Positions 6,058 to 22,232 of a stretch of 64,000 nt of DNA are shown one piece after another. The notes below the pieces were generated by a model that ran no database searches, was not told the origin of the DNA, and was given only the letters and a program-made list of their open reading frames with translations. The stretch is from Solidesulfovibrio carbinoliphilus subsp. oakridgensis (GTDB lineage: Bacteria; Desulfobacterota; Desulfovibrionia; Desulfovibrionales; Desulfovibrionaceae): NCBI RefSeq assembly GCF_000177215.2, contig NZ_CM001368.1, forward strand, positions 2,356,001-2,420,000, given 5' to 3'. Made by a program: the position numbers and the translations under genes. Within the stretch, counting starts at the first letter, position 1. Each line of letters starts with the position of its first letter.

Positions 6058-6328
6058 AATCCTTGAAGGGACGCAGGTGGGCGGAGCTTTTCTTTAAACG
6101 TCTGGAACGTAAAATTCCATCAGACTCGCCCCGTCCCCGGGGCGACGGGCCTGGGTGGCCGGAATCGGGTTGGCGTGCTGGCCGGCTTTGCGGCCAGTGT
6201 CGCCAACCCGATTCCGGCCACCCGTCACACCCCCGACCACGACCACCCCGCCACCCGCTTCCCCAACCCCCGCCCACCCGTTCGGGGGGTCCGGGGGGCG
6301 TGACGCCCCCCGGCCGCCGGAGGCATGC
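6058..6328 (+). repeat. Composite structured repeat, copy 1 (contains 71-nt hairpin)
   Basis: About 270 bases that recur at 17925-18242 and, in shortened form, at 22023-22232. The order is a conserved leader (AATCCTTGAAG), a CGCCCCG/CGGGGCG hairpin, and a 71-nt hairpin at 6153-6223 with 23-bp outer and 7-bp inner stems. A C-rich stretch then leads to an inverted GCCTCCGGCGG repeat. It sits between convergent genes. No open frame with gene-like features is present. The whole 376-base gap 5979-6354 consists of this and the preceding repeat. Confidence 0.85.
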
Positions 6329-6354: not shown

Positions 6355-7368
6355 CTACTCGACGGCCACCAGGAACGAGCGCCAGCAGCCGGCGCAGCCC
6401 GGGGGCGGGGTGTCGGTGTCGTGCTGGTAGCGGAACTCGCGGTAACCGGGGTCGTTCCAGACGGCGGACAAGGGGGTGGCGTGCAGGTTGCCGCGAATGT
6501 CGCGGGGGAAGGGGACATCCCGGCCGTGGAAGCGGTAGCTGGCCGGGGGCGGGATGGGCACGTTTCGGAGAGCGCAGGGGCTGACCGCGCCATCGGCCGC
6601 GAGAAAGAGGCTTGCGCCCGGCGTGTCCGGGCAGTGGAAGCGCGAGACGCCGCCGTGAACCAGCCGGCAGTCCAGGGCGATGCCGTAGGTGGCGGCCTCG
6701 GCCCTGACGCGGCGCAGATGGTCGGCCAGCCGGTCGTAGGCGTCCTGGTCGTCTGGCACCAGGGTGTCGGCTTCGGTTTCCGGCCGGGTGGCGTAGGAGA
6801 GCGGACGCAGCGAGGCGGCGCGCACGCCGATGCGGTCGAGGAATTCCGGCAGCCGGTCCAGTTCGGCGGCAAGGCCGGAGCGGGTCAGGGTATAGCGGAC
6901 CGCGATTTCGGGACGTCCGGTCTGGTGCACGGCGCAGACGGTGCGCAGCCGGTCCATGGCGGCCAGGGCGGCAAAAAGGCTTGCCCCGCGCCGGCGGAAA
7001 TTGGTTTCCTCGGACAGGCCGGCCAGGGGGAAGACGACCCGGTCGATGCCGTCCCGGACGAGGGCGCCCGCCTGCTCGTCCCCCAGGCGCGCCCCGTCGG
7101 TGACCACAACCACCCGGGCTCCGGTCTTGGCGGCCAGGGCCAGCATGGGCAGGATGTCCGGGTTGGCCAGCGGGTCCCCCCAGCCGTGGAAGCGGATTTC
7201 GGCCACGTGCCGGACGGCGGCCAGGACCTGCTGCCACAGCGGCAGCGGCAGGTCGTGGTCCAGCCAGTGCTTCCGGTGGCCGGCCCGGATGGTGTAGCCG
7301 GTTTCGGCCCGGCTGCGCGAGGAGGCCTCGACGTGCAGGAGGTCGAGGACGAGCGGCGCGTGGATCAT
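6355..7368 (-). CDS. Radical-SAM-fold protein lacking the cluster cysteines, SPASM-like C-terminus
   Basis: A 337-residue protein with the radical SAM barrel layout: IRFHGWGDPLANPD matches the usual GGEP strand and VVVTDGARL the next strand. The expected CxxxCxxC after TSR is replaced exactly by Ser19-RAE-Thr23-GY-Thr26, so the catalytic 4Fe-4S cluster cannot form in the usual way. The C-terminal twitch/SPASM-like region keeps cysteines at 246, 265, 325 and 328 (FHCPDTPG, DGAVSPCALRN, GCAGCW). The start overlaps the MEMO gene stop by ATGA, so translation is coupled. I infer a pseudo-radical-SAM partner of the MEMO protein, possibly binding rather than catalytic. Confidence 0.78.
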   Translation of the reverse strand: MIHAPLVLDLLHVEASSRSRAETGYTIRAGHRKHWLDHDLPLPLWQQVLAAVRHVAEIRFHGWGDPLANPDILPMLALAAKTGARVVVVTDGARLGDEQAGALVRDGIDRVVFPLAGLSEETNFRRRGASLFAALAAMDRLRTVCAVHQTGRPEIAVRYTLTRSGLAAELDRLPEFLDRIGVRAASLRPLSYATRPETEADTLVPDDQDAYDRLADHLRRVRAEAATYGIALDCRLVHGGVSRFHCPDTPGASLFLAADGAVSPCALRNVPIPPPASYRFHGRDVPFPRDIRGNLHATPLSAVWNDPGYREFRYQHDTDTPPPGCAGCWRSFLVAVE

Positions 7369-8588
7369 CGGGGCGAAAAGACGGCTCCGGCGAAGCTGAC
7401 CGCCGAGCGTGTCTCGGCCTCGCGCATGACATCGTGGGCCAGGAGCGCCATGGTCGCGGGAGGCAGGATCTCGGCCAGGGTGGCCAGGGCGGTGAAGCCG
7501 CAGACGTTGTAGACGTCCTTGACCCGGGCGGACTCTTCCCAGATGGCGTCGGCGTCGCCCCGGGCCAGGGCGTCGAGCAGGGCCGTGTCGTGGGCCAGGG
7601 CCGCTTCTTCCAGCGCCTCGGCCGGCTCGGCGTGGCCGAACTTGGGGCCGATGTGAAAGAGGTCCACGCCGGCGACCACCAGCGTGTCAGGATCGGCGGC
7701 CATCTCGCGCAGGGCGGAGAGGAACGGGCCGGCCGCCTCGCGAAAGGCCTGGCGGGAGTGCCTGGGCAGGGCGCCGAGCGGCGAACCGCACAGGATCGGC
7801 ACCAGGGTGAAGGGCGCGTCGCCAAGGACGTGGCGCAAAAAGACGGCCTGGAATTCCACCGAATGCTCGGACCGGTGGGGCAGGTCGGCCGGGTCCACGG
7901 TGGCCTGGCCGGCCCGGCGCAGGGCGGCCACGGCCGGGCCGTCGGCCGGGACCTCGCCCAAGGGCGTGGCAAAGACCTTGTCCGTCAGGCAGTAGAGGCC
8001 CTTTATGACCTGGTGGCCGACGCCGAGGACCACCACCCGTTTGGGGGGCGTGCGGCCGTCTAGGGCGGCGCGCAGGGCCCCGTAGGCCGCGCCGTACCCG
8101 GCCTTGCCGGCCTCGGGGTCGATGTGCGGGGCGATGACGGCCACGACCGGCCCGGCGGCCGGACGGGCCGAAGCGGCCTCCAGCATGGCGTCGAGGTAGG
8201 GGACGAGGAGCGCCGGGGCGTCGGGATAGGCCTGGCCGGCGAACACGGCCGGGCGCACGGGCCTGGCGGCGAAATCGGCCGCGGCCTCGGCTTTCCGGGA
8301 CTGGTAGCACGGGGTGTCGAGGAGGCCGGCGGCGTCGAGTTCGGACAGGACCGACAGGATGTCGTCGCGGCTGACCCGGCGGCCTTCCTGCAGGGCCGTT
8401 ATCTCCTTTTCCAGGTCGGCCAGGGAATGCCGGCCGTCCATGAGGGCCAGGACCGGCAGGAGCCCGGCCGGAATGCCCGTGCCGTAGGGCACCAGTTCCA
8501 GTCGGTCGCGGACGAGGACCATGTTGCGGCCCTCGTGGTCAAAGGGAATGAATTCGAGGTCGTGTCTGGCGCGGGGGTATTCCATCAA
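7365..8588 (-). CDS. PqqD-like domain fused to MEMO-family protein (AmmeMemoRadiSam B type)
   Basis: A 407-residue protein. Residues 1-105 resemble a PqqD-like peptide-binding (RRE) winged fold (LVLALMDGRHSLADLEKEI then ILSVLSELDAAGLL). Residues about 110-407 are a MEMO domain with likely metal or active-site residues H155 (APHIDPEAGK), H192 (GVGHQ), EHSVEFQ 241-247, H312 (VDLFHIG) and C363 (VCGF). MEMO proteins are related to extradiol dioxygenases and are often encoded with AMMECR1 and a radical SAM protein; AMMECR1 is not visible here. The gene is the first of a two-gene unit with the cysteine-less radical SAM protein. Its substrate is unknown. Confidence 0.82.
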   Translation of the reverse strand: MMEYPRARHDLEFIPFDHEGRNMVLVRDRLELVPYGTGIPAGLLPVLALMDGRHSLADLEKEITALQEGRRVSRDDILSVLSELDAAGLLDTPCYQSRKAEAAADFAARPVRPAVFAGQAYPDAPALLVPYLDAMLEAASARPAAGPVVAVIAPHIDPEAGKAGYGAAYGALRAALDGRTPPKRVVVLGVGHQVIKGLYCLTDKVFATPLGEVPADGPAVAALRRAGQATVDPADLPHRSEHSVEFQAVFLRHVLGDAPFTLVPILCGSPLGALPRHSRQAFREAAGPFLSALREMAADPDTLVVAGVDLFHIGPKFGHAEPAEALEEAALAHDTALLDALARGDADAIWEESARVKDVYNVCGFTALATLAEILPPATMALLAHDVMREAETRSAVSFAGAVFSPR

Positions 8589-16528: not shown

Positions 16529-17829
16529 TATGAACCGGGTACATGATTGACAGAACGGACCGGGTACATGGTTGACACTTTTGGGCAGAGGAGGAAGCTC
16601 CAATGCCCTGGAAAAAGGTCAATCCGATGGAAGAACGCGCCCGGTTCATTGTGGAGTTGTCGCAGCGACGGGAATCATTTGCAGCCTTGTGCCGCAAGTA
16701 TGGGATCAGTCGCGAAACGGGTTACAAGTGGCTGCGCCGCTATCAGGCAGGGGAAGGGCTTGGGGAACGAAGCCGCGTTGCCCGGCATTGCCCGCACAAA
16801 ACACCTGATGCAGTCGTCACGTTATTACTCGCATTGCGACAGGAGAATCCCTACTGGGGTCCCAAAAAGCTCGTCAGGCTTCTGCAAGATGTGCACGGCA
16901 TAGAGTACCCACCGGCCAAAAGTACAGCCGGCGACATTTTGAAACGGCACGGATTGATCACCGCCACAAAAGCAAAGCGCCGTCAGTCAGGAGGCCGGTT
17001 GCGGCGAGAGGATCTCCGGCAGCCCAAACAGGCAAATGATGTTTGGAGTGCGGATTACAAGGGCTGGTTTCGCCTGGAGGACAGGAGCATTTGCCATCCT
17101 TTGACAATCAGTGACATCTTTAGCCGCTATGTCTTAGGGTGTTACGTCTTTCCTACGCAGACGCTTGAACGAACAAAAGAGGCGATGCGGCGGGTGTTTA
17201 TGCGATACGGCCTGCCACGCGCCATCCGCGTGGACAATGGGACTCCGTTTGGTTCGACCGGGATCGCAGGTTTGACCGGCTTAAGCGTCTGGTGGCTCCA
17301 GCTGGGTATTGTCGTGGACTTCATCGCGCCTGGAAAGCCCGAGCAAAATGGCTGCCACGAAAGAATGCATCGGACCTTGAAACTGGAAGCCACTATCCCG
17401 CCTTCGGCGAATCTGCGGGAGCAACAAGAACGATTGGAGTCCTGGCGGGAGCGATTTAATAGCCATCGTCCCCATGAAGCACTTGATCAGGCCACGCCGG
17501 CTTCAATCTACCGGCCTTCGTCCCGGCGGCTGCCTCGAAACGAACCATGCTTTGAGTATCCCTCCTCTTTCGAAAGTCGGACGGTTCGCCGGGATGGGAT
17601 GTTCAACTGGGAAGGCAGGCAGATTTTTCTCGGCGAGGCATTTGCGAAATGTCGCATCGGCCTGACCAGAAATTATGATGATCGTTGGCTGGTTTATCTT
17701 GGAGAGCACCTGCTCGGCGGGTTTTGCCCCAAAGACCCCAAACGGGTGGTTCCGGTTCGATCCCTGATCAGCTAAAAAGTGTCAGGGATGTACCCGGTCC
17801 AAACTGTCAACGATGTTCCCGGTTGCACA
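16529..17829 (+). mobile_element. IS481-family insertion sequence
   Basis: About 1.3 kb. The left end reads TATGAACCGGGTACATGATT. The right end, on the other strand, reads TGTGCAACCGGGAACATCGT. Both continue with GACCGGGTACAT and TGACACTTTT, so the terminal inverted repeats extend about 55 bases with several mismatches. One transposase gene fills the interior. A target duplication cannot be read because the insertion lies in a C-run. Composition is lower in GC than the host genes, consistent with recent arrival. Confidence 0.88.
16603..17775 (+). CDS. IS481-family transposase
   Basis: A 390-residue DDE transposase. The N-terminus (MPWKKVNPMEERARFIVEL) and a helix-turn-helix (SFAALCRKYGISRETGYKW) should bind the terminal repeats. 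The rve-type catalytic core shows the three acidic residues in WSADYKGWF, RVDNGTPFG and NGCHERMHRTL. The C-terminal region (FNWEGRQIFLGEAF) is typical of longer IS481 members. The frame is intact, so the element may be active. Codon usage has more AT at third positions than the flanking genes. Confidence 0.95.
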   Translation: MPWKKVNPMEERARFIVELSQRRESFAALCRKYGISRETGYKWLRRYQAGEGLGERSRVARHCPHKTPDAVVTLLLALRQENPYWGPKKLVRLLQDVHGIEYPPAKSTAGDILKRHGLITATKAKRRQSGGRLRREDLRQPKQANDVWSADYKGWFRLEDRSICHPLTISDIFSRYVLGCYVFPTQTLERTKEAMRRVFMRYGLPRAIRVDNGTPFGSTGIAGLTGLSVWWLQLGIVVDFIAPGKPEQNGCHERMHRTLKLEATIPPSANLREQQERLESWRERFNSHRPHEALDQATPASIYRPSSRRLPRNEPCFEYPSSFESRTVRRDGMFNWEGRQIFLGEAFAKCRIGLTRNYDDRWLVYLGEHLLGGFCPKDPKRVVPVRSLIS

Positions 17830-17924: not shown

Positions 17925-18242
17925 AATCCTTGAAGCGATTCAGGTGGGCGGCGCTTTTCTTTAAAAATCCTGTACGTAAAATTCCTTCAAACTCGCCCCG
18001 TCCCCGGGGCGACGGGCCTGTGTGGCCGGAATCGGGTTGGCGTGCTGGCTGGCTTTGCAGCCAGTGTCGCCAACCCGATTCCGGCCACACCGACGCACAC
18101 CCGCCCAAGACCACCAGCCCACCCACCTACCCATCCCCCGCCCACCCCGTTCGGGGGGTCCGGGGGGCGTGACGCCCCCCGGCGGGTCCAGGGCAGCGCC
18201 CTGGCGGGGTCTGGGGCAGCGCCCCAGCCGCCGGAGGCATTG
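17925..18242 (+). repeat. Composite structured repeat, copy 2
   Basis: Same order as the copy at 6058: AATCCTTGAAG leader, GGTGGGCGG, TTTTCTTTAAA, GTAAAATTCC, CGCCCCG hairpin, 71-nt hairpin at 18020-18090, C-rich stretch, and inverted GCCTCCGGCGG repeat. The last part is extended by two extra small hairpins (CCAGGGCAGCGCCCTGG and CTGGGGCAGCGCCCCAG). Stem substitutions relative to copy 1 are compensated. It fills most of the gap between the IS and the NifA-like gene. Confidence 0.85.
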
Positions 18243-22022: not shown

Positions 22023-22232
22023 ACCTCGCCCCGTCCCCGGGGCGACGGGCCTGTGTGGGCGGAATCGGGTTGGCGTGCTGGCCGGCTTTGCGGCCTGCGT
22101 CGCCAACCCGATTCCGCCCACACGCCGCACACCCGGCCACGACCACTCCGCCATCCGCCTACCCAACCCCCGCCCACCCCGTTCGGGGGGTCCGGGGGGC
22201 GTGACGCCCCCCGGCCGCCGGAGGCCTCTTCG
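22023..22232 (+). repeat. Composite structured repeat, copy 3 (lacks the leader)
   Basis: CGCCCCG hairpin, 71-nt hairpin at 22053-22123, C-rich stretch and inverted GCCTCCGGCGG repeat, as in the other copies. Arm position 7 is changed from C to G, with the pairing G changed to C. The inner stem has one unpaired position. It sits between convergent genes and, with the preceding short repeat, fills the 345-base gap. Confidence 0.85.

Follow-up and report, generated by a model that had tools for sequence, protein, structure and literature searches.

Genomes of the genus Solidesulfovibrio encode a protein of radical SAM fold which has lost the three cysteines of its CxxxCxxC cluster motif, keeps the four cysteines of a SPASM-like auxiliary site, is maintained under purifying selection and is encoded directly downstream of, and overlapping with, a gene for a MEMO-domain fusion protein. 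The pair lies in a stretch of 64,000 nucleotides of Solidesulfovibrio carbinoliphilus subsp. oakridgensis (NZ_CM001368.1, positions 2,356,001 to 2,420,000; hereafter the window), where the features listed in Table 1 are found. To judge from the residues that were replaced, the protein, which we refer to as pseudo-SAM, has almost certainly lost SAM cleavage, and we lean towards the view that, within a conserved two-gene unit, it serves the MEMO fusion as a partner without catalytic activity.

Table 1 Features of the pseudo-SAM/MEMO fusion locus, in window coordinates.
Feature	Position	Strand	Residues or basis
Pseudo-radical-SAM/SPASM gene, 337 aa	6355..7368	(-)	Stop codon 6355-6357; translation and profiles
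Degenerate cluster motif	7291..7314	(-)	S19 7312-7314, T23 7300-7302, T26 7291-7293; Cys in 52/52 aligned intact homologues
D65 of GWGDP	7174..7176	(-)	Glu in 52/52 intact and 77/78 further homologues (1 masked)
R158	6895..6897	(-)	Both pseudo clades; Ala in 52/52 intact homologues
SPASM-like auxiliary domain, residues 246-329	6382..6633	(-)	C246, C265, C325, C328; PF13186
ATGA overlap of fusion stop and pseudo-SAM start	7365..7368	(-)	Translational coupling
Putative PqqD-like/MEMO fusion gene, 406 aa	7365..8585	(-)	PF01875, TIGR04336
MEMO domain	7380..8246	(-)	Metal-pocket residues H154, H191, D308, H311, C362
N-terminal domain, ~100 aa, possibly PqqD-like	8286..8585	(-)	Low-confidence beta-beta-beta-alpha-alpha-alpha order

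The pseudo-SAM protein scores above the cut-offs of both the radical SAM profile PF04055 (31.8 bits, cut-off 29.5) and the SPASM profile PF13186 (34.7 bits, cut-off 21.5), in agreement with the first-pass annotation of this DNA, which had read it as a radical-SAM-fold protein with a SPASM-like region. Its predicted structure, in which confidence lies mainly in the barrel (residues 41–190), matches the folds of PqqE (the top match), SkfB and BlsE with TM-scores of 0.43–0.51. In the translation, Ser19, Thr23 and Thr26 sit at C-x3-C-x2-C spacing, and a profile alignment to BtrN places the three cysteines of the BtrN CxxxCxxC motif on these same residues, which bears out the reported replacement of the motif with exact spacing.

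The pseudo-SAM protein was found in 13 of 14 Solidesulfovibrio genomes, the other copies being 68–74% identical to that of the window. The exception, G002, is a genome that is 69% complete, in which a match to residues 1–226 of the MEMO fusion runs to the contig end, so that a pseudo-SAM neighbour would not be visible there. None of the 13 genus members carries CxxxCxxC, and all share the genomic context described below; a loss confined to a single strain, which the first-pass annotation had named as an outcome that would refute its reading, is thereby ruled out. All 13 proteins have Ser at position 19; at position 23 five have Thr, six Ile, one Ser and one Val, and at position 26 there are 12 with Thr and one with Cys. 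The full Ser/Thr/Thr set therefore occurs in only five of the 13 genomes and, being variable across the genus, is not a conserved ligand set: the idea that the set is conserved across a clade stands for the loss of the cysteines but not for the residues that took their place.

These counts also bear on whether the protein could still be a radical SAM enzyme whose cluster is held by other ligands. The fold, the SPASM domain and the GWG loop are all kept, which speaks for such an enzyme, but seven of the 13 proteins have Ile or Val at position 23, which rules out Ser/Thr as cluster ligands, and C246, C265, C325 and C328 are the only cysteines present in all 13; we consider this explanation very improbable. 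Retention of these four auxiliary-site cysteines, as first described for the window, thus extends to the whole set of genus copies. They are likewise present in all 15 degenerate proteins (the 13 of the genus and two of a second clade, see below) and in 52 of 52 aligned homologues with an intact motif, but of 78 further intact homologues only 64 show all four in the aligned columns, some of the rest falling short because the fetched stretch was short. As the model is of low confidence in the auxiliary region (pLDDT below 50 for residues 237–337), it is ligand conservation that points to a cluster at this site.

Comparison with other homologues shows that the loss of the motif is not a chance finding. 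Of 288 genomes of the taxonomic family that were searched by profile, 107 gave matches reaching E 1e-20. Apart from the degenerate proteins, we inspected 136 homologues, comprising a set of 29 from the family (17) and the order (12), after exclusion of three degenerate and two duplicate rows, 29 from a phylum sample of 395 genomes (matches at 1e-45 or better only) and 78 further family matches; G305, matching over the C-terminal half only, and matches weaker than 1e-20 lie outside this count. All three cluster cysteines are kept in 134 of the 136: CxxxCxxC is present in 29/29 proteins of the family and order set and in 29/29 of the phylum set, and in 76 of the 78 further homologues each of the three aligned columns holds Cys (a pattern-only count on 74 of the 78, made before the aligned-column count, had given 70 with the motif). 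The two remaining proteins are L235, which is cut by a contig edge, and L284, which is masked, in each case at the first cysteine, and both have the second and third. A single member of the genus, G011, encodes another homologue of the family that reaches E 1e-20 (L048:9299-10477, G011:C27), and in this one the three cluster cysteines and GWGEP are intact. Of 19 loci around intact homologues, seven have in common a gene for a membrane protein that lies no more than a few kb from that of the radical SAM protein (L045:5547-7328, L046:5982-7805, L050, L135, L170, L175 and L176). The membrane protein is PF03601 Cons_hypoth698 in the two loci that were checked, L045 and L175, and may give a clue to what the intact family does.

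A second degenerate clade was found in two genomes (G023 and G241) of one other genus. Neither protein has CxxxCxxC; Val, Ser and His stand at the three cysteine positions. In both genomes the gene lies directly behind dapF (L043:8516-10534, L133:8746-10689) and gene order is conserved.

We compared residues in an alignment of seven of the 13 genus sequences, the two second-clade sequences and 52 cysteine-intact homologues. All 52 intact homologues have Cys at positions 19, 23 and 26, Glu65 (within GWGEP) and Ala158. Both degenerate clades share Asp65, Ala68, Pro114, Arg158 and Thr162, each of which is found in 0/52 intact homologues, and also Val204, found in 2/51. These six rare shared residues compare with zero to two that 15 control pairs of intact sequences share with either clade. 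Among the 78 further homologues, 68 have Ala at position 158, six have Ser, one has Asn and one Gln, two show a gap, and none has Arg. The G-W-G-x-P loop that contains residue 65 is what we take to be the equivalent of the SAM-contacting GGE motif of the radical SAM fold.

The protein could be imagined to be a SAM-responsive regulator that still binds SAM, or some related nucleotide, but leaves it uncleaved, a reading with which the retained G-W-G-x-P loop and the conservative Glu-to-Asp change are compatible. Set against it are Arg158 and the new loop at the former cluster site, which would suggest a refilled pocket, and the absence of the cluster by which the methionine moiety of SAM is anchored, and we regard it as improbable.

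The gene is not decaying. None of the 13 genus copies has an internal stop, and dN/dS in the eight closest pairs is 0.14–0.22. The loop of residues 12–40, which carries the former cluster motif, has a mean pairwise identity of 0.845 compared with 0.745 for the whole protein, and a median pN of 0.098 compared with 0.199 for residues 41–190. Of 309 windows of the same length along the protein, 11 are as conserved, including the loop itself and those overlapping with it, the others lying near residues 102–141. The loop, more conserved than the protein average, is thus selected for something other than cluster binding, and this, with the residues shared by both degenerate clades, points to a rewiring of the site. 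A decaying pseudogene would explain the lost catalytic residues, but the low dN/dS and the conservation of the loop rule it out, and we give it next to no credence. Retention across the clade under purifying selection is thus supported.

Whether the two degenerate clades descend from one loss is less clear. They are joined in the tree with support of 99/95 and remain joined, with an SH-aLRT of 98, in a tree built without the motif columns (seven of the 13 genus sequences used). In leave-one-out trees each clade settles at no common place, and both are long branches, so that long-branch attraction is possible. The five shared residues that are absent from all 52 intact homologues favour one origin, and a single loss behind both clades is the explanation we favour, short of proof.

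The upstream gene encodes the second protein of the pair. For its start, ATG 8585 is to be preferred to TTG 8588, as relatives begin at the equivalent ATG. The protein scores 114.3 bits against PF01875 and 90.7 bits against TIGR04336 (cut-off 26), and its model superposes on human MEMO1 with a TM-score of 0.77–0.80, normalised by target length. The five metal-pocket residues, H154, H191, D308, H311 and C362, are invariant in 18 of 18 aligned MEMO fusions. In human MEMO1 the pocket consists of His49, His81, His192, Asp189 and Cys244 (PMC9477392). His49, His81, His192 and Asp189 align with H154, H191, H311 and D308 of the fusion; C362 lies beyond the end of the alignment, and its match to Cys244 is drawn from the order of the motifs. 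At the level of sequence, the MEMO metal pocket of the fusion is intact. The fusion thus has the same fold as human MEMO1 and the same pocket residues (His, His, Asp, His, Cys), but differs from it by the extra N-terminal domain and by the coupled pseudo-SAM gene.

The nature of the N-terminal domain is less certain than that of the MEMO domain, which profile, fold and pocket all confirm. The label PqqD-like, given to it at first pass, would fit the beta3-alpha3 element order of its model, which is that of the PqqD winged helix, although pLDDT is mostly 26–59. Five of 16 fusion N-terminal domains match PF05402 (PqqD), at best with E 3.5e-4; the domain of the window itself is without a PF05402 match and gives HTH_47 at 0.024 only. 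An hhalign comparison of the N-terminal domain with 11 PF05402 members reached a probability of 49.8% over 43 columns, a PF05402 search of 59 genomes gave 27 matches with none at a MEMO fusion, and a PDB profile search with the domain returned nothing better than E 0.13. We therefore treat the relationship to PqqD as suggestive only. One fusion, in G036 (L083:7491-9275), extends by about 190 residues at its C-terminus, where a match to shikimate kinase that barely passes the threshold (22.3 bits against 22.1) makes a three-part protein possible.

The two genes are tightly linked within the genus. The MEMO fusion lies directly upstream of pseudo-SAM with overlapping stop and start in 13 of 13 loci (in G007 the contig starts inside the fusion), the junction being ATGA in 11 and GTGATG in two, so that both the coupling noticed in the window and the conservation of the pairing hold in Solidesulfovibrio. 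At E 1e-60 the MEMO fusion was found in 22 of the 288 family genomes, namely in all 14 of the genus (G002 and G007 counted as fragments) and in eight others, each from a different genus. No pseudo-SAM homologue was detected in stretches of 9–17 kb around the eight non-genus fusions, which indicates that pseudo-SAM is dispensable for some of the fusions. The contig of G033 breaks off within the MEMO fusion, leaving the downstream side unseen, and the genome has no match to the pseudo-SAM family at 1e-20. Nor did these eight solo fusions share a conserved neighbour, the only groups common to their loci overlapping the MEMO gene itself. In the second degenerate clade, the MEMO fusion of G241 lies ~450 kb from the pseudo-SAM gene and G023 has no MEMO fusion match. 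As pairing is absent from that clade and was not found in the stretches around the fusions of the eight other genera, tight pairing is a feature of this genus.

This distribution would also fit a pseudo-SAM that acts on its own, as a sensor or an electron carrier with one cluster, the overlap with the MEMO gene reflecting co-expression and no shared complex: the second clade does not sit beside MEMO, and MEMO fusions occur without pseudo-SAM. Yet all 13 loci of the genus have retained the overlap even though no flanking open reading frame is conserved in all of them, and we find independence doubtful. The search for flanking frames covered those of at least 25 aa within 6 kb on either side at E 1e-6, several flanks being cut by contig ends, and the most widely shared occur in seven of 13 loci, all of one subclade. 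Within these bounds no conserved small peptide gene, for which the first-pass annotation had suggested a search, was found next door; a shorter or more divergent peptide could be missed by such a search.

Just downstream of the pseudo-SAM gene, at 6157–6219, lies a 63-base palindromic element (18-base arms with 27 bases between them) which recurs at 18024–18086 and 22057–22119. Its arm has six matches in the window with at most two mismatches, compared with 0.01 expected, and 17 genome-wide with at most one mismatch, mostly in pairs; the element is a REP-like dispersed repeat. Elsewhere in the window, at 16603–17775, an open frame reads like an integrase or transposase, a label taken from the reading frame itself.

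The first-pass annotation had compared the pair with the AmmeMemoRadiSam systems (TIGR04335, TIGR04336 and TIGR04337), which likewise combine a MEMO protein with one of radical SAM fold, and the MEMO domain of the window does pass TIGR04336. Descent from that system is, however, not supported by the profiles. Among the 23 NCBIfam matches of pseudo-SAM at E 1 or better TIGR04337 does not appear, and TIGR04317 leads. TIGR04317 (tungsten cofactor oxidoreductase radical SAM maturase) and TIGR04311 are the best named relatives of pseudo-SAM and of the homologues scanned, both matched below cut-off (for TIGR04317, 90.9 bits against 380), and the window protein differs from TIGR04317 in being without the cluster cysteines. 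Moreover, TIGR04337 proteins above cut-off occur in 12 of 14 genus genomes, a separate second TIGR04336 MEMO in 13 of 14 and AMMECR1 (TIGR04335) in 14 of 14. In the genome of the window, TIGR04337 is found above cut-off at C1:1761698 only and AMMECR1 at C1:1146885 only, and these two and the second MEMO map to three separate places beyond the window. A degenerate AmmeMemoRadiSam enzyme is thereby ruled out. What stands of the original proposal is that radical SAM chemistry was almost certainly lost and the fold probably reused, for which the clade-wide loss of the cluster site and the continued selection argue; the AmmeMemoRadiSam origin does not.

NCBIfam already names a pseudo-SAM/SPASM family, TIGR04347, which by its name is likewise of radical SAM/SPASM fold, so that proteins of this kind are known. 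The window protein scores 41.2 bits against it, far below the cut-off of 525 and no higher than four of five cysteine-intact homologues (42–61 bits), and therefore looks like an independent case. Among the titles and beginnings of abstracts listed from the open-access literature (in part the best 20 of 53 and 12 of 50), we found no paper on this pair. What is new here is this lineage, the coupling to MEMO and the coordinated changes of the site.

A further parallel is with PqqD and PqqE. PqqD docks on PqqE, and the present pair has a possible PqqD-like domain together with a radical SAM/SPASM-fold partner for which PqqE is the top fold match; it differs in that the domain is fused to MEMO, the partner is without cluster ligands and no peptide gene was found nearby in the flanks searched. 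Our preferred reading, with moderate confidence, is that pseudo-SAM, which has no ligands for the SAM-cleaving [4Fe-4S] cluster but keeps all four for a single auxiliary [4Fe-4S] cluster, presumably occupied, would dock on the MEMO fusion, possibly through the PqqD-like domain in the way that PqqD does on PqqE. Its barrel and auxiliary cluster would then position a substrate or supply electrons to the metal centre of MEMO, at which the reaction or the handling of metal would occur. A bolder version, in which we have low confidence, is a new two-protein metalloenzyme: a D65/R158 network would have refilled the SAM pocket, the PqqD-like domain would recruit a peptide or protein as substrate, and MEMO chemistry would have taken over from radical SAM chemistry on substrates of a similar kind. 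What the sequences show is the loss of the cluster ligands, the retention of the auxiliary ones, the selection and the pairing in the genus; that the two proteins form a complex, that the auxiliary cluster is occupied, which of the two carries out the chemistry and any peptide substrate are parts that we infer.

Proteins of radical SAM fold are normally assumed to be enzymes. A lineage in which the SAM cluster site has been lost and rewired while the auxiliary ligands and the fold stay under selection is a natural experiment on the auxiliary domain by itself. Structures of human MEMO1 have been solved with copper and with iron, and its activity is, to our knowledge, unsettled; a fixed partner for a MEMO protein with an intact pocket, as found in this genus, gives a handle on MEMO function.
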